NCBI GenBank assembly: GCA_004764695.1
Contig: SMSO01000034.1
Span: forward strand, 1,071,501 to 1,135,500
Direction: 5' to 3'
DNA: 64,000 nt
Source of the DNA: Schizochytrium sp. TIO01
Lineage: Eukaryota; Sar; Bigyra; Thraustochytrida; Thraustochytriidae
Shown: positions 14,152-62,280 of the stretch, piece by piece
Position numbering within the stretch: the first letter of the stretch is position 1
Layout: every line of letters begins with the position of its first letter
The notes under the pieces: generated by a model
Databases searched by the model: none
What the model was told of the DNA's origin: nothing
The model's input: only the letters and a program-made list of their open reading frames with translations
Program-made: the position numbers and the translations under genes

Positions 14152-16431
14152 TTATCGATGCATGAACCATCGCCATACCATATTTGCTGAGCTAACTGGT
14201 CCACTAGTGCGTCCAGATTTGCTGCTTTCTGAAGATTTGCTGCTTTCAGTAGATTTGCGGTCATCAGCATGATCAGTACCTTGAGCGTCCGCAGCATGCA
14301 CAGCATGAGTGCTCGACTTAACTGATGCTGTGAAAGCCAAAGGAAGAGACGTCTTATAAGACTGGTTAGTGATTCCTGACAAGTTACTTGAGGATGTTGA
14401 GATAGCAGAGGCAGAAACGGTTTGCTGCACGCAAATTGTACCGGCTGGGTCCTTTGTATTGCTTGATGCATCGAGAGGGCCAGAGTGAGGACGATCAGCC
14501 TTGCATGCTTTGGAGGATGGACAAGGCGACGCATCTTCCTGGTTTGAGTTGTTGCATTGCTGAGTTTGCGAGACCGACCCTGCAGCTGCAGTAGAGTCAG
14601 CAGCATTCTTGTTGTGGTCATTGACATTTTCATTATTATTTGTGTTGTTGTTGTCACTGCTGCTGCTGTTCAATATGGTCGTAGGTTGTCGATCAGGCAA
14701 AATTGCAATTGGAGGCTGGGTGCCAGTTGGTTGCGCATCGGTTGTCACAGAAGTTGTGACAGATGCGAGAAGGGCAGTAACTTGTGGATCGATGGGTGCA
14801 GTGATAATATGGCCGATGTCAATCATATTAGTCGACACCGAGCCAAGGCTATCATCATAAACTTGTTTGACGTGATCAACAGCGGCACGCATTGCTTTAT
14901 ATTCACGATCACGAATAAGGCTGTACTCGAGAACAATAAACATAAAGTGCCGAAAAGACTCATGAAGAAAATCGCCTGCTTCGTTCTCCTGCAAGATGTC
15001 TTGGCAGTGATGAAAAAGAATGGCATAAACACGAAAAAGACGTGTGTAAACCGTGGTAATAATCTCCATAAAGTCATCAGGAAATAAGGTTTCTTCGTCC
15101 ACAGGAAAATACCGACGATCATTGATTATTCCCTCAACCCAGCCAAGGGCATGTTGTACATACTCGGGGCCAGACATGCGAACTGGTTTGCGTTTCTCCT
15201 TGACGAGAGGCGGAGCCCATCGGTATTCGTAATGTGGTGGAAAGCCCTGGCCAACTTCTGGGTAACGAATCTCCAACTCTTCATTGCACATGTCTGCCAT
15301 TAGACAAACTTCTTTGAAGAACTGATACAAATTTGTAGCAAGCCATTCATATGATTCTTCGCGGCGACCAAGCTCGCCAACCAAAAGTGGCATTGTATGT
15401 GTAGATGGCGTGGATGGTAGAGTGAGAGTCTCGTCGCTCGGACCACTCGCATCTGTGGATGCTGTTGATTGCGAGTCCAGTGAAGCAGCAGGTAGGGGCC
15501 TTGGCCGGGTTAAGGGGGGTGCTGTTGACTTATTAGAATCCCCTTCTTGATTTTGTACACGAAGTTTGTTGATGATGGTTGCGTTCTTTTTGGACATCGT
15601 CCCCAGTCGTCTTTCCCTTTGCACAAGGGCGCTTTCGTCAGTGGTGTCGGTCTCATCGTCGCATTCTGGAGAGCCCGTTGCCTCGCACTCCTCCTCGTTT
15701 TCACAGCTGCTCCTGCAGATGGGGTCGCTGCTTTCCATCACAAGTTGCTTGCGACGAAAGGTAGACTTCATCTTGGTTTTGGCAAGTGTAAGGATAGCGC
15801 TTGCCACTTGCGACTGAGATTGTTGTGGCCCTCCCTGGCTCATCATAGAAATCTTCTCTCCAAAGCCATCGTCCATATCACCAAATTCGCACCGCACATC
15901 ACCTTCCAGTGCACCAGCACGAATGGCCGCTGCTATAGCGCTTACATCCTCGCCACATTTGTCCATCCTGTCATATCTGTCGCCCTTTTTCACAAGGAGT
16001 CCCTTGCTCTTCATCAAGCCACCGCTTTTTTCGACCTCGCTTCCGCCTTTGGTGTCGCCTGGAATGTTATTGTTGTTATTATTATGATAAGCGCTATCGC
16101 CGCTGTGAACAGTGTGGGTATGATTATTATGTACGCCGTGCCTCGAAATCGCGCGAGCAAGCTTGCTGCCCACGCGAGCGGCCTTGGACGCAGGAGCTGC
16201 ACCCGATCTGATTGCCTCTGCTGCCGACGAAGAAACTGCCTCTGCAGAGCTCGAGCTCGCTGTGCTTTTGGAGCTGGTCGGCATTGCTCTGGGCTCCATC
16301 AAGGCTGCACGCGCCGTGGAAGACGGTGCTTGAGTCAGTGAAGAAGACAACGGGCTTGACAGAGAGGCTGCCGCGGGAGCATCCAGGCCGCCCTCCGGAA
16401 GAACAAGCAGCCGCGGTCCCTGCAAGAACAT
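14152..16431 (-). CDS. MOB kinase activator-like protein with degraded zinc site and long Ser-rich extensions
   Basis: From the ATG at 16431 (MFLQGPRLLVLPEGG) the protein has 759 residues. The frame continues upstream through a lysine run encoded by an A/T tract, which I judge to be leader. Residues 1-350 are Ser/Ala/Asn-rich and disordered. Residues about 358-525 match the MOB1/phocein fold: WLATNLYQFFKEV, YEYRWAPP, YVQHALGWVEGII, LFPDDFMEIITTVYTRLFRVY, HESFRHFMFIVLEYSLI. MOB proteins bind and activate NDR/LATS kinases in Hippo and mitotic-exit pathways. Of the four MOB1 zinc ligands (Cys79, Cys84, His161, His166), only the first is kept (Cys382); the others correspond to Glu, Ile471 and Cys476. 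Seven extra residues lie between the first cysteine and the YEYRW motif. The C-terminal 230 residues are low complexity (Ser, Thr, Asn). Confidence 0.8.
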   Translation of the reverse strand: MFLQGPRLLVLPEGGLDAPAAASLSSPLSSSLTQAPSSTARAALMEPRAMPTSSKSTASSSSAEAVSSSAAEAIRSGAAPASKAARVGSKLARAISRHGVHNNHTHTVHSGDSAYHNNNNNNIPGDTKGGSEVEKSGGLMKSKGLLVKKGDRYDRMDKCGEDVSAIAAAIRAGALEGDVRCEFGDMDDGFGEKISMMSQGGPQQSQSQVASAILTLAKTKMKSTFRRKQLVMESSDPICRSSCENEEECEATGSPECDDETDTTDESALVQRERRLGTMSKKNATIINKLRVQNQEGDSNKSTAPPLTRPRPLPAASLDSQSTASTDASGPSDETLTLPSTPSTHTMPLLVGELGRREESYEWLATNLYQFFKEVCLMADMCNEELEIRYPEVGQGFPPHYEYRWAPPLVKEKRKPVRMSGPEYVQHALGWVEGIINDRRYFPVDEETLFPDDFMEIITTVYTRLFRVYAILFHHCQDILQENEAGDFLHESFRHFMFIVLEYSLIRDREYKAMRAAVDHVKQVYDDSLGSVSTNMIDIGHIITAPIDPQVTALLASVTTSVTTDAQPTGTQPPIAILPDRQPTTILNSSSSDNNNTNNNENVNDHNKNAADSTAAAGSVSQTQQCNNSNQEDASPCPSSKACKADRPHSGPLDASSNTKDPAGTICVQQTVSASAISTSSSNLSGITNQSYKTSLPLAFTASVKSSTHAVHAADAQGTDHADDRKSTESSKSSESSKSGRTSGPVSSANMVWRWFMHR

Positions 16432-19400
16432 GGCTCCGCCGCGCGGGCCAGCGCCCAGCCTCGCGGAATCAATGCAGCGAGGGTGCTGTCCTCGCGCGAT
16501 CTGGTGCGATTCTGATTTGATTTCTTGTTGGAATGATTTCTTTGTTTTGCTTATTCGTGCTACCCTCCTTAAAATATGTTCTTTTATTTGTTCTCTTTTT
16601 TTCTTTTTCTTTTTCTTTTTTTTAGAAAAGAAAAAAAAGTAAAAGTAGGCTTTAACCATTCGCATTCTACACTTTGCAATGATTATTAGTCATTATTAAT
16701 ATTAAATATATATATTTAATTAAAAGAGAACGAAAGAATTTAAAAAAGGGCTTTCGAAGTCTTTTTGTTTTCATGCTCAGCGAATTCTTTTTTAGTGTTT
16801 TTTTAAATTTATTTTTTTAAGTCTTTTCGTCAACTTACAAATTGAAAGAGTATTCTGGGTTGTTTGAGCAATCATTGCATTCGCGCACGCTGTTGCCAGA
16901 GGCCAGTCATGGAAAGAAATGGTTTACATTGCGCCACCACGCGCCTCTATTCCTCTGCAAAGTGCAGCCTCTGAGCAAAGAAGCGAGTTGCCAAGCTTAT
17001 TCGCGAAGCAAACAAGCCTCGTCCCTCTCCTCTGGGGGCCTCTCCTGTTTGGAGAGTTCGTTAGAACAGTTCCAACGAACGAACAGCCGACTTACTAAAA
17101 CATGTTTTTCTCAACTTGTTCTTTTAGAATGCATAAACAAAGCAGAGAGACAGGAAGACAGGAAGGAAAACAAACGTTGAACCTTTCCAATCATGAGAGA
17201 AATAAATAACGAACCGAAATAGCTTTTCGCATGCTAAGCAACTGCTTCAAGCCCTTCGGCACTACAATAGAATGAAGGTCGCTCTCGAAGACAGTCCCAA
17301 TCTCTTATTTACTCCTAGATTAGAACTTAGCACTCCTTCCGGAACCCACGAAGGCCTGGAGTTCAACTTATCCTGAAAGCAACAGGTAGAACCTAAACCT
17401 GCGTTTCATCATTACCTTGATTCTCTTAATGAATTCGAGCAGCACTTCAAGTTGAGGTTCTCAACTCTGGCCAGGGGAATCAACATCAACGTCAAGGACT
17501 TGAGCAGACACGGAGCCGAGGAAACTGAGCCTCTCCAAAGTGGCAAAGCGGTTCGGTTAGGGATAGAAAGTGCGCAGCGGAAGATAGATTCAAACGATCG
17601 ATCGACCGATTGATTGCACTTTTAAAATCCTACAACATCTATTTAATTATAGAAGATGGAAGGAAACATGAGAACATTGAGAACTTCAGGGCCTTGCAAA
17701 TTGCGCAGGCTGGTCGGCACGTGAATTTTTAATGACTGACAGCGCGTTTCCACAAGTCTATATTCTAAAATGGGACACTCAGTGACAAGCCAAACGCGCA
17801 GACTTGGAGGTGTACCGAAATGCGTCTGACTGCCGGGGTTGTCAGGGAGAAGAGGATCCCTCGCGGTAGCAGCCACCAGTGATGCAGATTATGGGCAACT
17901 AGTTCTTGCCACCGAGCTGCTCAGAAATAAACAAAACATCTGAACAGTGCTACAGTCACGTGTTTCAAGGGAAAGGCGAGGTAGAGTAAACGCTAACTAG
18001 TAATAGTTATACAGCTCATGAAGAAGTGTGATGTTAGTGGCGAAGTTGATTGAATAAGGGAGCTTCTGCGCTGTCTGTATACTGCGTGAAAACTGCCTTT
18101 TCTACGGGTTAACTCGAAGGCAATGGCGAGAGAGCCCGCGAGCAGTTGCTTTCTCAAGTAGTCCCTGTGGATCAGCAGCGTAGCATTTTAGAGGGCTGAC
18201 GGCTTGTCCTGACTTCGTCCTAATTGATGAATCGCGGCCCTTCACTTTCATTCTCCTCTCGGACTTTTAAAGTGTTCTTTTTTGTCCTCCTTTTTCAATT
18301 AATCCCCCCCTGTCTTTTTATATGGAAATGAGAAAATCAGAGAAAATGTCTCATCCGAGTTCTTTTTACTTTGTTTATTCTTTATGTTTATTCTTTATAA
18401 TCTAGGTATACAATTCATGCTTTTAAAAACTTAAAAAAAGAAAAAAGCTAAAATCTAAAAAAGTAAGAAAAATAGCATTTTAATGGGGGAACTCTTATTC
18501 GGTCTTATGAAGGAATTGATGTCCTTTTAAAAATTGATGGCTTTTATTTTAAGTCTTACTTTTTTTCTTTCCTTTTCTGGGTAGAGTCTTTGCACGAGTT
18601 CCTGGCGCTCCCTTTCCCGAGGCTGGTCAATGGCTTGCTCGCTCCAAACATCGATCAACAAGCAAGCTCTTTACGCATAAGATGGGATAATCAAGTACTT
18701 TCTGATTACGGAAATGTCTAGGCTACGGGATCGTCGAGCTGCGTATCGTCAGTGGATGATTCATTCGCTTGGCTGAACTGGTTCTTCACCTCTAACTTGG
18801 GCGTAAACTACTTTGCGCCAGGAGAATGGGTCCAGCTTTTCGAAGGTAGGGTAGTGTGTATCCACAAATGTTGTTGAACAAGAGATGCAAAACGCTGTCC
18901 TTCACTTTATGCAAGCATTTGGCGACTTGCCACCAGGTACCCCAATGGGAACAATGTATAAGAGCGGCTTGGATCGAAAAAAGGAAGGGCTAATCGTCCG
19001 CTGAGACTTAGTTCCTTTATAATTTTTATTTTCGCTCGCGTTCTTCTTGGCACCTCTTTGTTTCATTTCTTTCAGATAGTACTTACTTAGGAAGTACCGC
19101 AACAGCAATGAAGTTTAGAAAACTCAGTGGCCCTCTTCTTCAGATAATCGCGAAAGTCTGATTGATTCAAAGCTCGGGTTGATAAAAGGTCACCCTTTCT
19201 ACACCCCTCCAGAGCAGCCACTGAGATCGAACTAGCTAGATATTGTTTTGCGGGGCAGGCATGCGTCCTGGCTTAATGTTTAATTTCTGGCATCTTTCTG
19301 GGCCGTCTCTCCCTCAATCCTTGCGTTCCGAACTAAAAAGTTGATCTAGTTTTTAATTTTCTCCTAGTGTTTCGGGATGACAGTGATTAAGAAAAGTGCG

Positions 19401-27548: not shown

Positions 27549-28859
27549 ATGAGGCTTATTTTGCGTGGCGCAGAGGCAGAGGCAGTGCGGGCTTCACGCG
27601 CAGCTGCTACAAGCTCCTCTTGCAACACCGAAACTCGCAACAACGCGCCAACTGCAAACGAAGACAGCAGCGATGAGAATGTGCTGCGCCACTCTGCCGT
27701 ACATAGCTCGACTGTTGACAGTTCTATCTCAAGTCCAGTTGCTCAAGCGGCAGCTGAATGCGGTAGCTCATTGCATAGCGGATCTCGAAGGCTAAGTCAC
27801 AGTAATTCGCCATCAATACCTTCCACGAAGTCTTCAAAGAAAAATTCGTCGAGCTCTTCTAATAATACTGCCTCATGTGGGAGCGCTTCAATGTCTCCGC
27901 CCTTCACTCGGCAGATCACCGAGAAGAAGCCGAACGCTGTTAAAACAAATAATCTCTCAGAATCTTCTGGGTCGGTGAAGCTGTGTTTCGAAGAATATCT
28001 TGTGCAATTAAAGAAGAAACGAGGTCTGGAGTGGAGACGAATGTGTGGCGACGGGAATTGTCTCTTTCGGGCGGTAAGTGCCCAAATCTTGGGAGAGCCC
28101 GACTGGCACGCAGAGATTCGTGTGCGGGTCGCGGACCACCTTGCAAAGGACAAATCACATTTTGCGAACTTTGTTTCTGGCAGCTTTGAAAACTATGTGG
28201 AGAATATCAGGAGAGATGGTGTATTCGGAACTAATGTAGAACTTCAAGCAATCTCGGAAATTTATAATCGCAGCGTTGAGGTGTATCAGTTTCCGGGCGA
28301 AGCAAAACGAGATTGTGGCAAAGTTTTTGTTGAAAATTTGCAAGATTTAGTGAAACCGATGAATACATTTCAAACGACGTATGTAAGCAAAGACCCTCCT
28401 ATTCGTCTCTTGTATTCAAATGGTAATCACTATGATGCACTTATTGATCCTTGGGAAGCTTCAGTTGGTGTAGGTCTCGGGTTGCCTGGTCTAGAAGCTG
28501 GTAAATTGGAACGCGATCTTCTCGAGGAAACACGGAAGCGCAGTATTGCCGATTTATATGGATTGAGCTCAACAGAACCAACATCAAGGTCCGTCGTGGC
28601 AAGTTCCTCGTCGTCTTCTTCTTCTTCTTCTTCGTCGTCGTCGTCGTCCTCATTGGCAATTTCAACCTCGCAACCTCTCACTGAAACTGCGGACCAGCTG
28701 CATAATTCTAGCACATCATCATCTTCTTCGTCTTCACTCACACGAGCTGGTCATGAATTGAACAACTCACCAATTCTTCAGGATAGCATTAGTGATACTG
28801 AGGCTGCTTTGCTCGAAGCCGCTCTGTGGGAGAGTCACAAGAGGTCACGTAGTTCATGA
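27549..28859 (+). CDS. OTU-family deubiquitinase, OTUD5-like
   Basis: The first ATG in frame is at 27549 (MRLILRGAEAEAVRASR), giving 436 residues. Residues 1-150 are Ser/Asn-rich and disordered. The OTU cysteine-protease domain runs from about 155 to 305 with the catalytic set Asp168/Cys171 in CGDGNCLFRAVS and His294 in GNHYDAL. The segment NVELQAISEIYNRSVEVYQF plus MNTFQTTYVSKDPPIRLLY follows the OTUD5 pattern, in which the enzyme removes ubiquitin, mainly K48/K63 chains, from signalling proteins. A poly-Ser stretch coded by TCN repeats follows. At residues about 416-429 DTEAALLEAALWES fits a ubiquitin-interacting motif, also found at the OTUD5 C-terminus. Chain preference cannot be read from the sequence. 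The stop is TGA. Confidence 0.85.
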   Translation: MRLILRGAEAEAVRASRAAATSSSCNTETRNNAPTANEDSSDENVLRHSAVHSSTVDSSISSPVAQAAAECGSSLHSGSRRLSHSNSPSIPSTKSSKKNSSSSSNNTASCGSASMSPPFTRQITEKKPNAVKTNNLSESSGSVKLCFEEYLVQLKKKRGLEWRRMCGDGNCLFRAVSAQILGEPDWHAEIRVRVADHLAKDKSHFANFVSGSFENYVENIRRDGVFGTNVELQAISEIYNRSVEVYQFPGEAKRDCGKVFVENLQDLVKPMNTFQTTYVSKDPPIRLLYSNGNHYDALIDPWEASVGVGLGLPGLEAGKLERDLLEETRKRSIADLYGLSSTEPTSRSVVASSSSSSSSSSSSSSSSSLAISTSQPLTETADQLHNSSTSSSSSSSLTRAGHELNNSPILQDSISDTEAALLEAALWESHKRSRSS

Positions 28860-29533: not shown

Positions 29534-30874
29534 CTATTCAAAGAAGTGATCGTCATATGGTGCAACCTGTCCATGGTCACGACCGACAGCGCCAGATGAT
29601 TCATCCTCAACAACAGAAATGGTTGGAATCCCTGGCGCAGAGTTCTGCAGGTGCTCTTGAGGAGACTGATCCCGCTGGACCTGTGCTTGACCATGATCAT
29701 TGATGTGAGTTTGATGGGCATGATGATGAAGATGTTCTAAATCTGTATGGTGCTCGTGGTGCTCGTGGTGGTGCATGTGGTGTTCATGAGGGTCGTCCTC
29801 ACCTCCAGGCTCACCACCCGTCTCCAGCGCTCTATGATGCATGTCCTGGGCATGCAGTCCGGCCAAGTGTATGGCATGATGATGAACACCAGCTGGAACG
29901 CCGTCGTGCGTGTCAATTCGAGGTACCTTCGTCATTGCATGACCTCCAAGCGATTGATCTGACCTCGTGCGCTCTCCTTGAACCCTTTCAAGGCGGTCAA
30001 ACTCACGTAGGGTCTCCGCGTCACACAGTCCTCGTAACCTTTTAAGCCTTTGTCTAAGCAAGTTATTCTCTGCCTCCACGTATGCTAGCTGCTCCTGGAG
30101 CTCTGCAGCGCTCTTTTGGCCCCTCGACTTGAGCTCCCTGCAATCTTCCGGCGCGTGCATTGCACAATACTTTCTATGGGTTGTACCATGCATATAAAGT
30201 GCACGCGTGCCACAGGAGGGAACACAACACGTTCGTTTGCTCAGGTTCACTGCTCCTTCTCTTTTGTGTTCGCTGCACCACCTGCGTCTGTCTCCAGGCA
30301 TACCGAATGTCGCTTGGGTACCACACTGTGCTGCCTCACATAGTGCAGCGCCCTTGATGTAGGCACCAGCGGGTTTATGCGCAGCACACCAGCGTTTTTT
30401 AATGCCATCGAATGTGTACGAGGCATGTTTTTCACAGCCATTTTCTTCACAGAAACTAGACTGAAACGAATGGGAGCCAGGTAGTTTGTGTTGCGCACAC
30501 CATCGATATCGTTTCACGTTATCTCCAAAGGAAGCACGTTTCGAGCAACCAGGGAGTTCGCACAGTGCACCTCTTCGGGCACGCCTTGGTCTGCGAGCGC
30601 GCTGCTCAGGCACTAAGTTGCTGTCGTCAGTTATCAAATCATGATGGACGACACTGACAACTTCAGCAAGCAAACCGTCGGAAGCTAAGTGCAGGTCATG
30701 GTGGCTGCCATCGTGCGGAACAACCGTAGAGGTGGAGGAGGAAGACGAAGACGAAGACGAGGCAGCCGTCGAGCTGGGAATAAGGTCGTGAGAGTGCTGC
30801 GACTGAATAGGTGTCACTCCTTCTTCGGGGTGGACGTCGGAAAGTGGCCCGTGCGGGGCGCCGGCGTCTGTCAT
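29534..30874 (-). CDS. EsV-1-7 repeat protein with leucine zipper and His-rich tail
   Basis: The ATG at 30874 (MTDAGAPHGPLSD) gives 446 residues. Four consecutive cysteine/histidine repeats occupy residues 105-240 with strict spacing C-x4-C-x15-C-x2-H-x12: C105/C110/C126/H129, C142/C147/C163/H166, C179/C184/C200/H203, C216/C221/C237/H240. Internal motifs such as ASFG and RWCAQHK match the EsV-1-7 repeat, named after a brown-algal virus gene and known from the Ectocarpus developmental regulator IMMEDIATE UPRIGHT; its biochemical role is not established, and metal binding is inferred. A basic run (RARRPRRARRG) precedes the repeats. A coiled coil follows, with heptad positions L259, V266, L273 and L280, suggesting dimerisation. 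Residues about 320-400 are strongly His-rich. A nuclear regulator is plausible but unproven. Confidence 0.8.
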   Translation of the reverse strand: MTDAGAPHGPLSDVHPEEGVTPIQSQHSHDLIPSSTAASSSSSSSSSTSTVVPHDGSHHDLHLASDGLLAEVVSVVHHDLITDDSNLVPEQRARRPRRARRGALCELPGCSKRASFGDNVKRYRWCAQHKLPGSHSFQSSFCEENGCEKHASYTFDGIKKRWCAAHKPAGAYIKGAALCEAAQCGTQATFGMPGDRRRWCSEHKREGAVNLSKRTCCVPSCGTRALYMHGTTHRKYCAMHAPEDCRELKSRGQKSAAELQEQLAYVEAENNLLRQRLKRLRGLCDAETLREFDRLERVQGERTRSDQSLGGHAMTKVPRIDTHDGVPAGVHHHAIHLAGLHAQDMHHRALETGGEPGGEDDPHEHHMHHHEHHEHHTDLEHLHHHAHQTHINDHGQAQVQRDQSPQEHLQNSAPGIPTISVVEDESSGAVGRDHGQVAPYDDHFFE

Positions 30875-39896: not shown

Positions 39897-40670
39897 TTAT
39901 GCAGCCTTGGCTTCGGCCTTCTCCTCAGCCTCCTTCTCCTCGGCAATGATCTTGTCCAAGAGATGCTGAACCTCGTCATCATGCATGACGTGCTGCACAA
40001 GCTTACCGGTTGCCTTATCCATTCTGAGTACAGAGAACTCCATCTTGTCCGCGCTCGGGGTGACAGAGTCCATGGTCTTGTTAAGAACCTTGACAGCGAG
40101 CTCAAGGGCTTCATCAATAGAGCAGTCATCCTTGTACTCCTTCTTCAGGAGTGAGGTGGCAGCCTGATTGTTGGCGCCAATGGCGGTTGCCTTCCAGCCG
40201 CCATAGTTGCCGGACGGGTTAGATTGGTACAACTGGAATCCATAGTGGCGATCCCAGCCAGCATAGAGGAAGGAAACACCAAAGGGGCGCTGGCCACCAA
40301 ACTGGGTGTAGCCCTGCTTCAGATCACAAACCCGCATGATGAGCTGCTCGAGAGGCTGGGGCTCTTGGTACTGCAATTTGTAGTTCTGTGCCACGCGGCG
40401 CAAATAGCTAATGAGAACGTTGGCATCGGAGGTGAGACCAGCAACGGCACAGGCCACGTGGTCATCAATCATGTACAGCTTCTCGCTAGTCTTACTCGGG
40501 GCAAGAAGCTTGCTGGTGGCTTTTTTCTCAGCGGCAATCACAACACCATCACCAGCAAGGAGGCCTACACATGCGCCAGCATTGTCAATGGCTTGCATAG
40601 CGTATTCCACCTGAAACAGACGGCCTTCCGGCGAGAACACCGTGGTGCGCGAATCATATCTGGAGCCCAT
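39897..40670 (-). CDS. PSMA4: 20S proteasome subunit alpha type-4 (alpha3)
   Basis: The 257-residue protein starts [20 protein letters not shown], the proteasome alpha N-terminal signature. It continues with the family core: [70 protein letters not shown]. The [14 protein letters not shown] block and the LQYQEP segment match alpha type-4 more closely than other alpha subunits. Alpha subunits form the outer gated rings of the 20S core and are not catalytic. The C-terminus is Glu/Lys/Ala-rich and exposed, as is usual. The gene is a single frame with an ATG at 40670. Confidence 0.93.
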
Positions 40671-42660: not shown

Positions 42661-44529
42661 ATGGGTAACGCTCCCAGCATGAGCCGTGGAACCAGTGATG
42701 TTGCTGCCCAAGCCGCTCAGGCCGCGTCACAGGCGGTACTTGCAGTCCAAGCTGCCGCCGGTCTAGGCGCCATCGCCGCCGCAAGGCCCTCTGCTGTAGG
42801 TCTCTTTCCCCGCGACGCCCAGATCCGAGACGACTGGGTGGTTATCTCTCGAGACTCTCCCGTCAGCGCGAATGTCAACAGTGCAAGCGCCTCCATAAAT
42901 CAGCGTAATAACCAAAGTGTCGACGTTAATAACCTTGGAAGTTCAGGGAGTAAACGCGCGCGGAGTAATGGAGCAGGTGCCGCAATCGGCCTTGGGTCCG
43001 GCGAGATTACTGGCTTAGAATGTGTTCGATTGTCGGCACAAATGGTGAGGGCAGTGAGAGCCGCAAATCTTCGCGGTGAAGACCTTCGGCAAACAATGGA
43101 GAACTTAAACGAGGCGATGGCGCTCTTGACGCAAAAGATGAGTGAGATTGAACATAGGTCGCTGGCGGCAATGAGTGACAGCCAAAGAACGTGCTGTGCG
43201 TGTGACGTGGCGGCCGAAGACACATATGCGGACTTTGTGGAGCTAGCAAACTGTGGGCATTCGATGTGCTTAGACTGCTTCAGGACGCATGTCCTGGCCT
43301 CTGCACCGAGGGCAAGCTGCATAATACCTTCGTGTGCATGCCTGATCGCGGAAAGGGACATTCGAGCAAACTTGCAAGCTGGTGACTTGGACATCTACAT
43401 GTCGGCGAGTCTACATAACATCGGTGACCAGATCTGTCACTGCCCGAATTGTGAAAGTCGTATCGCTCTTGATCGAGATAAAAAGGACACTCGGAACGCT
43501 GCACGTGTACGCTGCGTCTGCAACGCAACGTTCTGTGCTGACTGCGCTGTCTCGCCGTATCACGAGGGCCTCTCTTGCGAGGAGTTCTTGACAACGACGC
43601 CTTGCAGGTTCTGCGAGAACCGCGTCCCTGCACCATCATCTGAAAGCAGTAGCCTAGGAGTCGTTGTTCGCTGTGCATCTCCAAGTTGTGAACAAAAGGC
43701 CCAAGACCTCTGCGGGAAAATTCGTCCTGAGTGCGGCCACGTTTGTGGAGGCTTAGCTGGCGAATCCTCTTGCCCTGAAATGTGTTTCCAGTGCCTTGGT
43801 CCTGATGCCTTGTGTGTTGTCTGCCTTGATCCACTCGAGCAAGGCGCAAGCATTGAGCTTTCTTGTGGCCACCCGATGCACGTTGAATGTATTCGTGAAC
43901 GTTTTGCGAGTGAACGTAGTGCCGAGCGTGCAACTCTAACTTTTGCCAAATGTACAGTATGCAAAGCTGATATGGCTCACCCTGAGGCTCTAGAGGCAGA
44001 GTTTCTCGCTGTTGCAGAACTGCGAGCAAGTGTTGGCAGCGTACTTGAAGAAGCGCGCCAGCGTGCTTCGCCTGCCGAGGCCCTCCTTGAAGATGATGCA
44101 TTCACTTTGTTTTATTGCACACGATGCCGACGCCCATTCTTTGGTGGCATGCGCCAATGTGAGGAAGCAGTAGACGATGCCAACCATGGAGAAGGAGGTC
44201 GGCATTGTTCTTCTTGCACATGTGCCCTGCAGCAGGTGTCCATTTGCCCAGAACATGGACCTGATAGTATGCAGTTCAAATGCTCTTTCTGTTGCACACC
44301 GGCCAGTTTCTTCTGTTGGGGGACCACTCATTTTTGTGTAGACTGCCACGCCCGCCAGATGGCTGGTGAGCGTCTAAACAAGCTATCTATTTCTCAACTA
44401 CCGCAATGCAATAGTGCGGAAGATTGTCCTCTAGGTCTCAATCATCCTCCCAATGGCACCCCCCCATCTATATGCGCTCCTGTGGTTCTTGGTTGCTCCA
44501 TGTGTCAGGCGCGACATGCCCTTATGTAA
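42661..44529 (+). CDS. RING-Cys-Relay (MYCBP2-type) E3 ligase with RBR-like N-terminal half
   Basis: The ATG at 42661 gives 622 residues beginning MGNAPSMSRG, an N-myristoylation-type sequence (Gly2, Ser6). Residues 15-45 are Ala/Gln-rich. About 178-232 is a RING1-like array (CCACD ... NCGHSMCLDCF), and 259-310 is IBR-like (CHCPNCE ... CVCNATFCADC). A CGHVCGG segment (358-364), which also precedes the RING in MYCBP2, leads into a C3H2C3 RING: C385, C388, C402, H404, H407, C410, C431, C434. The C-terminal 140 residues match the MYCBP2 tandem-cysteine domain. C500 and C552 align with relay cysteines C4520 and C4572, 52 residues apart in both; H563 aligns with H4583 and F558 with F4578. Phe4573 is Trp553, Phe4586 is Gln566, and the Glu4534 position is shifted (Glu511 nearby). 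MYCBP2 esterifies Thr/Ser with ubiquitin. Activity here is inferred. Confidence 0.82.
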   Translation: MGNAPSMSRGTSDVAAQAAQAASQAVLAVQAAAGLGAIAAARPSAVGLFPRDAQIRDDWVVISRDSPVSANVNSASASINQRNNQSVDVNNLGSSGSKRARSNGAGAAIGLGSGEITGLECVRLSAQMVRAVRAANLRGEDLRQTMENLNEAMALLTQKMSEIEHRSLAAMSDSQRTCCACDVAAEDTYADFVELANCGHSMCLDCFRTHVLASAPRASCIIPSCACLIAERDIRANLQAGDLDIYMSASLHNIGDQICHCPNCESRIALDRDKKDTRNAARVRCVCNATFCADCAVSPYHEGLSCEEFLTTTPCRFCENRVPAPSSESSSLGVVVRCASPSCEQKAQDLCGKIRPECGHVCGGLAGESSCPEMCFQCLGPDALCVVCLDPLEQGASIELSCGHPMHVECIRERFASERSAERATLTFAKCTVCKADMAHPEALEAEFLAVAELRASVGSVLEEARQRASPAEALLEDDAFTLFYCTRCRRPFFGGMRQCEEAVDDANHGEGGRHCSSCTCALQQVSICPEHGPDSMQFKCSFCCTPASFFCWGTTHFCVDCHARQMAGERLNKLSISQLPQCNSAEDCPLGLNHPPNGTPPSICAPVVLGCSMCQARHALM

Positions 44530-45519: not shown

Positions 45520-46113
45520 TTATTTCTTCACCAGCTGGTACCAGGAAATCTCCGTGACCTTATGAAGTGTGATGACAATAGAGTCCGGCTTGCACTTGTG
45601 CGAAACCTTGCTAATCTCACTATGCAGCTTGGGCAACATGAGTTCGTAGTCCTTGCCGTCATCCATATTTTTCAAGTTGATGGTCAGAGACGTTTCGGAC
45701 CAGTCGAGATCCACATTGTCGTCAGAAGGCTCAGCTCCGGTAAGAAGATCATCCGTCGGCACGTAAACCTTGACAGTCTTCTTGCCATCAGCCCAGCTGT
45801 AGCGCTTAATAACGTTTTTCAGCTTTTTGACAGGTACCTCGTCTACGGCCTGGCTAGGGTCAATACGGGGCGGTTCGCCGCCGTAGTTCTTGACAGTCTC
45901 GCGAGACGAAGCGTGAGCGTAGTAGTAAGCGTTCTGACCCTTGCGGCGGATGTTCTCCTGGAGGGCATTCTTTGCAGGGCTGTCGTCCTCCTCCTCATCT
46001 GCGGCAGAAGAAGTGCCCGCAACAGCGTCATCGCCAGTGTCCTCCACGGAAAGGGACGCGAGGTCCTCGCCCGAGAGCGTGGATTCAGCAGCGTTACTCT
46101 CGACCTCCGACAT
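45520..46113 (-). CDS. CS-domain co-chaperone-like protein
   Basis: The 197-residue protein starts MSEVESNAAESTL. Residues 1-50 are acidic and disordered. Residues 55-70 carry RRKGQNAYYYAHAS, a short conserved-looking helix. Residues 105-195 form a CS (p23-like) beta-sandwich: YSWADGKKTVKVYVP, VDLDWSETSLTINLKN, YELMLPKLHSEI, DSIVITLHKV. The order of strands and the YSW start resemble calcyclin-binding protein (CacyBP/SIP) and SGT1 CS domains, which connect Hsp90 to ubiquitin ligases. The TPR or SGS domains of SGT1 are missing. Exact orthology is not decided. Confidence 0.75.
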   Translation of the reverse strand: MSEVESNAAESTLSGEDLASLSVEDTGDDAVAGTSSAADEEEDDSPAKNALQENIRRKGQNAYYYAHASSRETVKNYGGEPPRIDPSQAVDEVPVKKLKNVIKRYSWADGKKTVKVYVPTDDLLTGAEPSDDNVDLDWSETSLTINLKNMDDGKDYELMLPKLHSEISKVSHKCKPDSIVITLHKVTEISWYQLVKK

Positions 46114-49585: not shown

Positions 49586-51367
49586 ATGGGCTGCACGAGT
49601 TCTTCGCAGCTTGACAATGTCGGCAAGAGGCCAGCTGCATTTGATGCCGCATCAAATTTGCCCAAAGTGGAAATCTTCATGGCGGTGAACCCCGGATCGG
49701 GTGGCCTCGTGTCGAAGCAGCTGCTCGATATGAACGTACCACGTTTCGAGATGGAGCTCTCTAAAGGAAGGCCCTGTATGGTAACAATTTTTAGCTTAAA
49801 GGACAACCAAGCTCGCGAGGAACGCTTTGAGCAGATGTCTACACTTTCAAAGGACAATGGTAACTACGATGTGCGTGTAGTGGCGTGTGGCGGCGATGGC
49901 ACTGTAAAATGGGTCATCTCCTGCCTTGCCAAGGTAGACGCCCTCAACATCCCCATTGCAATCATTCCATTTGGCACGGGCAATGACCTGGCCCGGTGTC
50001 TTGGTTGGGGTGCGTCTCCGCCGAGCCCGTTGATTGGTGAGGGTATGTCTGCCCTGACCGATCGTATTCGCATGATCTACAATGCTGAGGAAATCCCGTT
50101 GGATGTCTGGCTCATCAATGTTCGTCTCGCTGAGGGTAATACTGCCTATTTTGAAGAAGTGAAAGACCGCAAGGTGGTGAAATCTCACGAGGGCGAGCGC
50201 GAGCTCGAGGAAGTCATGATTAACTACTTCTCTATCGGTGCGGACGGGCAGCTTATGTTTGCTTTTGAACAAAATCGCCGCAAGTCCCAGTTTGCCAATA
50301 AGCGCGTATATGTCCGTAAAGGCATTGGACAGGCCATCGCCCCGCCTAAACGTCTTTCTAAATTTGTTGACAGTGCTGTGTGCGGACCCGGTGCTCTTGT
50401 TGCTGCAGGGCATTCTCCTCTTGCCGATGCTGCAAACCCATCACCGCTGGAGTTCAATGGCCAGGACCGCATGCTTCTCTTCTTGAACATTCCCAGCTAT
50501 GGTGCAGGCGCTGACCCATGGCACCGTGCAAAGGATGAACGGCAAAAGGGAAAGTTCCATCCCCAATATGTAGGTGACAAGGAAGTTGAAGTGCTTACTG
50601 TTAATCGGACCTCTGATATTGGTCTCTCCCTTACAACAGGCTCAACGCTTGGATTACATCGTCTTCGGCAAGGTAATGAATTCTTTATTCGTTTTCATGC
50701 TGGCTCTAATGTTTACTTTCAAATTGACGGAGAAGCTCTCAAAGCAAATAATGCTGAGTCTGTTTCTGTAACTCATGGATATCAGGTTCGTTTGCTTCGC
50801 GCCAAATCTGCAAAGGCAATTGCTTTGCCTCCAGGATTCAAGCCGCAATCGTCTGTGCCCTCACTTCGCGACATCAAGAGTAGTTTGGTGGATAAGGATG
50901 CCCCTAGTGTTCTTGATTCGAAGGATGAAGGTGCTGTTCGTGTCGCAGATGCCGAGGTAGAGGAGAAACTTAGAGAGGAGGAGGCACATTTACAGGCCAT
51001 CAGCACTGAGGTAGCAACCGATCTCAAAGATGCTACAATGGAAGAAACTTCAGCTCAAAATAACAGTGTTAATACCATTGCATCTGTACCTCAAGATGCT
51101 GAGAAGGCACCAGGCATCTTGGAAGCTGTTATCCCGACTCAAGATACAATTACAACGGAGGTAGTTTCTGATGCCGATGTGGAGATCGCAACTAACAAGG
51201 GTAAGCCTGAAGAAGAAGATTTGACTGATACTGAGGAGACTGAGGAAGGGGATACGAATGATGGAGAAGCTGTTTCTGCACCCAGAGAGAGCGATTTAAG
51301 TCAATCATCCAAAGAAAAGGCTGTTGATGAGAGTGCGCGGAGGGATCTAGCACCAGCTCTTTCATAG
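49586..51367 (+). CDS. Diacylglycerol kinase, N-acylated type lacking C1 domains (copy 1)
   Basis: The protein has 593 residues and begins MGCTSSSQL: Gly2 with Ser6 suits N-myristoylation and Cys3 palmitoylation. The catalytic domain (about 28-165) has the ATP loop [10 protein letters not shown] (Gly102-Thr106) and [15 protein letters not shown]. The accessory domain (about 210-410) has [19 protein letters not shown] and [16 protein letters not shown], as in eukaryotic diacylglycerol kinases. The reaction is ATP + diacylglycerol to phosphatidic acid. There are no C1, EF-hand or PH domains, so the acylated N-terminus probably replaces them for membrane contact. Residues about 430-593 are acidic and disordered with many DTEETEE-type stretches. 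Its paralogue lies at 60847-62280. Confidence 0.85.
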
Positions 51368-60846: not shown

Positions 60847-62280
60847 CTAAGGCTCCGGGTCTGGCTGTGCCCGCGAGCTACGCTTATGAATAGAGTTCTT
60901 GGAGCCCGGAGAAGTTTTCCTGTTCATCGCAATGTGTTCATTATTCTCATCATTTTCATTATCGGAGCCGTCACTCTCGTCGTGATCATGGTCTTCATCA
61001 AAATCGCTCGTGACAAATTCAGTGTGGATGGCATCTGGTTGCCCTGGAACAAGAGTACGAATGTGCGAGCCACCGGCCTGGACCGCAGCAGACGAAGGAG
61101 ATGTCATGATTGATGAAGCAATTGCTAAAGCACCTGAGGCACGAAGAACGTTAACTTTATAACCAAGCTCGATGGTGACCCGGCTGGGGTTTTTGGCAAG
61201 TACAGGCTCGCCATCGATTTGAATATAAATTTCAGAGTCAGGAACAAATTCCATTTCATACGAACTGCACTGAGCTGTCCTTTTAATACCAATTTTGGCA
61301 CCTGTACCAATAACCATGGCAACGTTTGGTGTTCCTCGAATTGTGCAAGCCTCGAGTTTTCCATCGCCAACATACTGAGGCAAAAAGTGTCCTCTATTAC
61401 TAGGAGAAGGTTTACCCCAAATGTTCGCACCAGCACTGTATGAAGGTATGTTGAGAAAGGCGAGAATGCGATCTGCCTTTCTGAATTTCACGTTTTCTTC
61501 TGTATCACCATGCATGCTCCTGACCATTTTACGAAGACGAGGCGGGCTGTGTACAATTTGATTTGCACCTCGTTGAACATAAACGAGTTTGTTGCCTAGT
61601 TGCGAAGCAGTACGGAGCTGCTCAAACTCAAAGACAATCCGCGCGTCGGAGCCCATAGAGAAATAGTTGATCATCTCTTGCTCCATCACATCATCATCAG
61701 GCTGAGTCTCTACAATTTGACCACCCTGTGCAATCATGAACTTGCCTCCCGCGCCTTTATGTATACGAATCTTCCACACGTCGAGCGAGATAGTACTAGC
61801 ATCAAGCATCATTCGCAGGCGGGCAATTAAGGCAGACTTGTGGTGACCAATAAGGGGCGACGGTGGGGCACCGCCGAAACCAGTAGCACGCGAAAAGTCG
61901 TTGCCTGTGCCAAATGGAATAACACCAATTGGGATCTGAGCGAGACCAAAGCGGATAAGCTCTGACAGCACCCATTTCACGGACCCGTCTCCGCCAGCAA
62001 CCACAACACGCAAATTGGGTCTCTCTGCAGAAACCTGGTCTCCAAGAATCCCAAGACCGCGCTCCCTGTCTTCTCTACTCTTTACATTGAAGAAGTATGC
62101 GCGGCAAGGCTCCCCTTTTAAGTTGTCAAAGTCAAAATGTGACGTCTTGAGGTCCAGAAGTGCCTTTGCTGCGTTGCCTCCAGAGGACTCGTTCACCATA
62201 ATGAATACCTGGCCCTGTAGTGCTTCTTCCGGCACATCCTGGATTACCTCCAGTCCGTGCCTCGAGGTTGAGCACCCCAT
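60847..62280 (-). CDS. Diacylglycerol kinase, N-acylated type lacking C1 domains (copy 2)
   Basis: I place the start at the ATG at 62280 (MGCSTSRHGLEVIQD), giving 477 residues; the frame extends nine codons upstream, but MGCSTS mirrors the MGCTSS start of copy 1 and suits myristoylation plus palmitoylation. The catalytic domain has AGGDGSVKWVLSE (Ser in place of the usual Thr) and [15 protein letters not shown]. The accessory domain has MINYFSMGSDARIVFEFEQ and LAFLNIPSYSAGANIWG, closer to the family norm (NIWG) than copy 1. The tail after about residue 395 is acidic (FDEDHDHDESDGSDNEND), ending in a basic segment. The substrate is presumably diacylglycerol. It lies about 10 kb from copy 1, on the opposite strand. 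Confidence 0.85.
   Translation of the reverse strand: MGCSTSRHGLEVIQDVPEEALQGQVFIMVNESSGGNAAKALLDLKTSHFDFDNLKGEPCRAYFFNVKSREDRERGLGILGDQVSAERPNLRVVVAGGDGSVKWVLSELIRFGLAQIPIGVIPFGTGNDFSRATGFGGAPPSPLIGHHKSALIARLRMMLDASTISLDVWKIRIHKGAGGKFMIAQGGQIVETQPDDDVMEQEMINYFSMGSDARIVFEFEQLRTASQLGNKLVYVQRGANQIVHSPPRLRKMVRSMHGDTEENVKFRKADRILAFLNIPSYSAGANIWGKPSPSNRGHFLPQYVGDGKLEACTIRGTPNVAMVIGTGAKIGIKRTAQCSSYEMEFVPDSEIYIQIDGEPVLAKNPSRVTIELGYKVNVLRASGALAIASSIMTSPSSAAVQAGGSHIRTLVPGQPDAIHTEFVTSDFDEDHDHDESDGSDNENDENNEHIAMNRKTSPGSKNSIHKRSSRAQPDPEP

Follow-up and report, generated by a model that had tools for sequence, protein, structure and literature searches.

The question raised by this locus was whether a small thraustochytrid protein carries the RING-Cys-Relay (RCR) machinery described for MYCBP2, and whether its front half makes it a hybrid with the RBR ligases. 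The window, by which we mean the whole 64,000-nucleotide stretch of Schizochytrium sp. TIO01 DNA that was analysed, contains an uninterrupted open reading frame that starts with an ATG at 42661 and has its stop codon ending at 44529; the initial annotation had placed this frame of 622 residues exactly. An in-frame TGA lies seven codons upstream of the ATG. The predicted protein begins with MGNAPSMS, and its first six residues fit the N-myristoylation pattern; a myristoylated N-terminus might serve as a membrane anchor. The features of the gene are collected in Table 1.

Table 1. Position and basis of the features assigned to the 622-residue protein (window coordinates)
Feature	Coordinates	Strand	Basis or remark
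Whole open reading frame, 622 aa	42661..44529	+	Order: RING1-like, IBR-like, Cys/His-rich segment, RING, TC
N-terminus MGNAPS, presumed N-myristoylation pattern	42661..42678	+	Fit to the pattern
RING1-like Cys/His array, residues 178–227	43192..43341	+	Spacing pattern; weak alone (55/2000 shuffles)
IBR-like domain, residues 259–306	43435..43578	+	Custom profile, shuffles, hhalign, spacing
Cys/His-rich segment with CGHVCGG, residues 315–378	43603..43794	+	Occupies the Rcat place of an RBR; no Rcat match
RING, residues 385–434	43813..43962	+	Aligned to MYCBP2 RING; 8/8 C3H2C3 positions kept, assigned from pattern, not structure
Tandem-cysteine (TC) domain, residues 486–619	44116..44517	+	Phmmer and alignment to MYCBP2
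C500, counterpart of upstream relay C4520	44158..44160	+	Alignment with MYCBP2
C552, counterpart of esterifying C4572	44314..44316	+	Alignment with MYCBP2
H563, counterpart of general base H4583	44347..44349	+	Alignment with MYCBP2

Codon usage did not single out this frame, since slightly higher scores were obtained for the antisense strand and for shifted frame 2; the argument for expression therefore comes from the long conserved frame alone. When the whole protein was used as a query against the genome (64.1 Mb, 37 contigs), one match was obtained. The C-terminal part found its own gene plus two weak rows with E-values of 0.02 and 0.1, which were judged by eye to be a RING protein (L007) and a chance match containing a stop (L008). 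The ligase gene is single-copy in the genome. The nearest Pfam-matched frames among those scanned encode a proteasome alpha subunit (39897–40670, minus strand) and a CS-domain protein (45520–46113, minus strand).

Several other genes in the window were recorded. An OTU-family cysteine protease (PF02338, 1.4e-15), likely a deubiquitinase, is encoded at 27549–28859 on the plus strand, with some 14 kb separating it from the ligase gene. The minus strand carries a protein with EsV-1-7 cysteine-rich motifs in three stretches (29534–30874; PF19114, 3.8e-27) and an 837-aa frame (14152–16665) that matches Mob1/phocein at residues 435–591 and has long flanks without a Pfam match. There are two diacylglycerol kinase genes, at 49586–51367 (plus strand) and 60847–62280 (minus strand). 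The genome also encodes a PfaA-type polyunsaturated fatty acid synthase, which scored above the curated cut-off. Such a synthase and the EsV-1-7 motifs would be in keeping with a thraustochytrid stramenopile.

Phmmer searches against PDB sequences matched residues 381–619 to the MYCBP2 chains 5o6c and 6t7f at about E 1e-25. A C-terminal domain of the MYCBP2 TC type had been annotated, and residues 480–622 searched alone bore this out, with an E-value of 3.3e-20; no PDB molecule other than MYCBP2 was listed up to E 10. Because cysteine-rich proteins match one another easily, the score was compared with those of 2000 shuffled sequences in which every Cys and His was fixed in place and the rest were permuted. 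The real TC domain scored 74.6 bits versus a mean of 7.9 and a maximum of 32.2 for the shuffles, so that none of the 2000 reached the real score. Across the aligned MYCBP2 stretch, all 16 TC cysteines and five of the seven TC histidines are kept; in the core (residues 529–563) 21 of 35 residues are identical, or 11 of 25 when Cys and His are not counted. The domain ends three residues short of the stop, at the C-terminus of the frame, and the RING that precedes it has Ile at the position of MYCBP2 C4417.

Scans with curated families were less informative. In Pfam scans the protein gave sub-threshold RING rows only, and the NCBIfam scan gave nothing relevant, two rows being dropped as chance matches. 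No PHR domain (PF08005) was found among the Pfam families at E up to 1; by Pfam, the protein is not a PHR (PAM/Highwire/RPM-1) protein. A search of the genome for this domain was likewise negative, although its control gave no signal either. Pfam rows for SpoIIE, DUF4838, Vault_3 and DASH_Dad4 were dropped as chance matches, as was a gasdermin row in the PDB search; the remaining PDB rows outside MYCBP2 were plain RING matches. A joint profile of the 622-aa protein and MYCBP2 recovered MYCBP2 from PDB, by construction, and otherwise RING-only chains; one row for 8fih (E 0.18, positions 90–173) was taken as chance. AlphaFold models made without an alignment had a mean pLDDT of 39.9 for residues 372–622 and 37.4 for residues 161–330, too low for either to be used.

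For the MYCBP2 residues numbered here (C4520, C4572, H4583, F4573, F4578, F4586 and Glu4534), a fixed offset put all seven right in the alignment. Both relay cysteines are present, in addition to 14 other conserved TC cysteines. C500 and C552 lie 52 residues apart, as do C4520 and C4572, and the next cysteine follows C500 after 15 residues versus 16 in MYCBP2. This pair, its spacing and its alignment, together with H563 as the partner of H4583 and F558 as that of F4578, had all been proposed from the initial reading, and each assignment held. At the level of sequence comparison, we regard the homology of the RING-TC unit and the identity of the relay residues and the base as demonstrated.

Residues around the relay have been altered in part as annotated. 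W553 stands for F4573, as had been claimed. F4586 is not kept; its partner is the annotated Q566 when no gap is allowed, and G569 in the gapped alignment. The three-Phe threonine pocket is thus absent in its MYCBP2 form, with one of three Phe kept (F558) and F4573 and F4586 changed. Glu4534, for which a substitution had likewise been suggested, falls in an alignment gap; an ungapped count back from C516 arrives at G513, and the nearby E511 is off by two positions. The Cys and His of the Cys-His-Glu triad are kept, and the protein has no aligned Glu.

In MYCBP2, ubiquitin passes from a RING-bound E2 to the first cysteine and from there to the second, after which Thr or Ser is esterified, according to the portions of PMC9527308 and PMC6769291 used here; the same portion of PMC9527308 describes the esterification site as Cys-His-Glu. 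In the portion of PMC6769291 used, the three-Phe pocket is held to explain the Thr preference of MYCBP2, which makes it a determinant of that preference and not of the relay itself. The lack of an aligned Glu and the altered pocket would argue more for a changed efficiency or acceptor preference than for a lost relay.

The same changes can be read in other ways. A homologous RING-TC unit might act as a plain RING ligase or a degraded relay, in which ubiquitin would go directly from the E2 to lysine and the TC domain would be a scaffold; the missing Glu4534 and F4586 and the replacement of F4573 by Trp would suit such a protein. A disused relay, however, would be expected to lose its relay cysteines, base His and loop length, and their retention here makes this explanation quite unlikely. 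A second possibility, which overlaps with a working MYCBP2-type relay, is that W553 and the change at F4586 have remodelled the pocket, so that ubiquitin would be relayed to something else: a serine, a cysteine, or the hydroxyl of a sugar or lipid. The role given to the pocket in the cited portion of PMC6769291 supports this, but F558 is kept and Trp, also hydrophobic, could line the pocket in the place of Phe, and we put it forward tentatively.

For the N-terminal half, RING1-like and IBR-like cysteine arrays had been annotated. Pfam scans found no RING1 or IBR family in this half, with a zf-RING_5 row below threshold at E 0.055, and phmmer of residues 161–378 against PDB listed no RBR chain; its only row, an antibody chain at E 1.5, was taken as chance. 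The genome has four IBR matches in two frames (L002 and L003). When the RBR of L003 was used as a genome query, five places were found at E up to 1, and the 622-aa gene was not among them.

A RING1-IBR profile was built from four sequences (L002, L003, ARIH1 and part of ARIH2). It matched residues 190–308, scoring 26.3 bits on the full-length sequence and 30.9 bits when the segment 161–330 was searched by itself. None of 2000 shuffles of each kind reached the real score, the maxima being 15.7 (Cys/His-fixed), 14.0 (Cys-fixed) and 17.2 (full). When the profile was split, the score was reached by 0/2000 shuffles for linker plus IBR, 1/2000 for the IBR alone and 55/2000 for RING1 alone. Applied to other parts of the protein, the profile gave 12.7 bits on the second RING (6/2000 shuffles) and −7.9 bits on the TC domain (456/2000). 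For the front half, hhalign gave a probability of 94.4. Spacing patterns were found at 178–225 and 259–306, and both together occurred in 0/20000 full shuffles; because the patterns were written with the sequence in view, this count is not an independent test.

The profile signal is carried mainly by the IBR. Of the two annotated arrays, the IBR is firm, on the evidence of the custom profile, shuffles and hhalign and not of Pfam or PDB phmmer, and RING1 taken alone is weak. These comparisons support a description of the front half as RING1-IBR-like without an Rcat, with the IBR as the firmer part. The results from Pfam and PDB, the failure of the L003 query to reach this gene, the weakness of RING1 and a profile drawn from four sequences only could also point to a chance arrangement of a RING and zinc fingers that is not RBR-derived. 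The counts for linker plus IBR and for the IBR alone, and the hhalign probability, speak against that origin, which we think unlikely.

An Rcat profile made from six sequences was used to search for the catalytic part of an RBR. No Rcat/RING2 with a catalytic Cys was found in residues 301–384, where the profile scored −7.3 bits, a value equalled or exceeded by 1217 of 2000 shuffles with Cys and His fixed, and this segment has no GCN-x-M-type motif. The best stretch for the Rcat profile in the whole protein (4.4 bits) was the IBR, at 254–297. Three PDB rows for residues 315–378 were chance matches; residues 338–378 presumably resemble the sequence that immediately precedes the RING in MYCBP2.

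Because no Rcat was found, the protein as predicted is not an RBR ligase, and two complete ligases do not meet in it. The initial annotation had suggested a meeting of two cysteine-based ligase styles, which in its strong form is unsupported. It might be argued that a TC domain has been fused to an RBR ligase and that catalysis depends on an Rcat that escaped detection: the RING1-IBR order would agree with this, and a C-x2-C (C315, C318) follows the IBR as it does in an Rcat. Given the negative profile score, the location of the best stretch in the IBR and the missing motif, we consider such an Rcat highly improbable.

Rcat-like segments were also observed in two other frames. Near the C-terminus of one (L011, 1–1872) is a segment of the form CPQC...RGCDLMHC, with an E-value of 5.4e-4 to an RBR; the other (L012, 1–1674), AAA-type ATPase-like by eye, has an isolated C-terminal CPNC...GGCDKMQC, with an E-value of 9e-4 to an RBR.

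Scans of the viral and prokaryote contig collections found no relative of the 622-aa protein. In one scan of each collection, 90 viral and 95 prokaryote stretches fitted a pattern, and none was confirmed; one further candidate from the viral contigs (L014) looked phage-like by eye, and none of its listed frames contained the motif. These collections are not where a relative would be expected, so absence there says little. A full-text literature search returned no paper pairing RING-Cys-Relay with protists or stramenopiles; eukaryotic protein databases may hold unnamed relatives.

From all of these results we consider that the protein is probably a compact RING-Cys-Relay-type E3 with a RING1-IBR-like accessory module. 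The core sequence features of an RCR ligase, a RING followed by a TC domain with both relay cysteines, are present, and the Phe pocket is not. The RING, the base and the pair of relay cysteines are all retained, which makes the MYCBP2 route the best-supported reading for this protein. The RING would recruit a charged E2, for which the genome offers 26 E2-fold matches; ubiquitin would be transferred to C500 on the mediator loop, relayed to C552 and finally passed to a hydroxyl, with H563 acting as base. The front half, lacking an Rcat, would most likely play an accessory part, as a module for binding substrate, ubiquitin or E2~Ub. We infer the use of an E2, the relay, the ester product and this role of the front half.

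A more specific and rather doubtful proposal is that of a chimera between RBR and RCR ligases: the TC relay would do the catalytic work of an Rcat that has been lost, and the RING1-IBR part would control an ester-forming relay. If this were true, relay chemistry would not be confined to the giant PHR proteins of animals and might be older than the animals themselves. A 622-residue protist relative in which Glu4534 and the Phe pocket vary would help to tell which residues are indispensable to the relay, and its expression should present fewer difficulties than that of a giant PHR protein. An RCR relative in a protist would also prompt one to ask whether ubiquitin signalling through ester linkages is an ancient eukaryotic trait.

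Compared with RBR ligases (ARIH1/ARIH2, L002 and L003), the protein differs in having no detected Rcat/RING2 and in a front half that reaches no Pfam RBR family and no PDB RBR chain, whereas the order of RING1-like array, linker and IBR and the IBR spacing are shared. MYCBP2/PHR1, represented by the RCR structures 5o6c and 6t7f, is a giant human protein; the protein described here has 622 residues without a PHR domain match, and only it has a RING1-IBR-like part in front. The two differ further in the distance between RING and TC (65 residues between C4440 and C4506 versus 51 between C434 and C486), and the smaller protein has Trp for F4573, does not keep F4586 and has no Glu aligned with Glu4534. 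Shared by the two are the RING, the pair of relay cysteines, the general-base His, the 16 TC cysteines of the aligned stretch and a loop of similar length after the first relay cysteine; in each, the TC domain lies at the C-terminal end.
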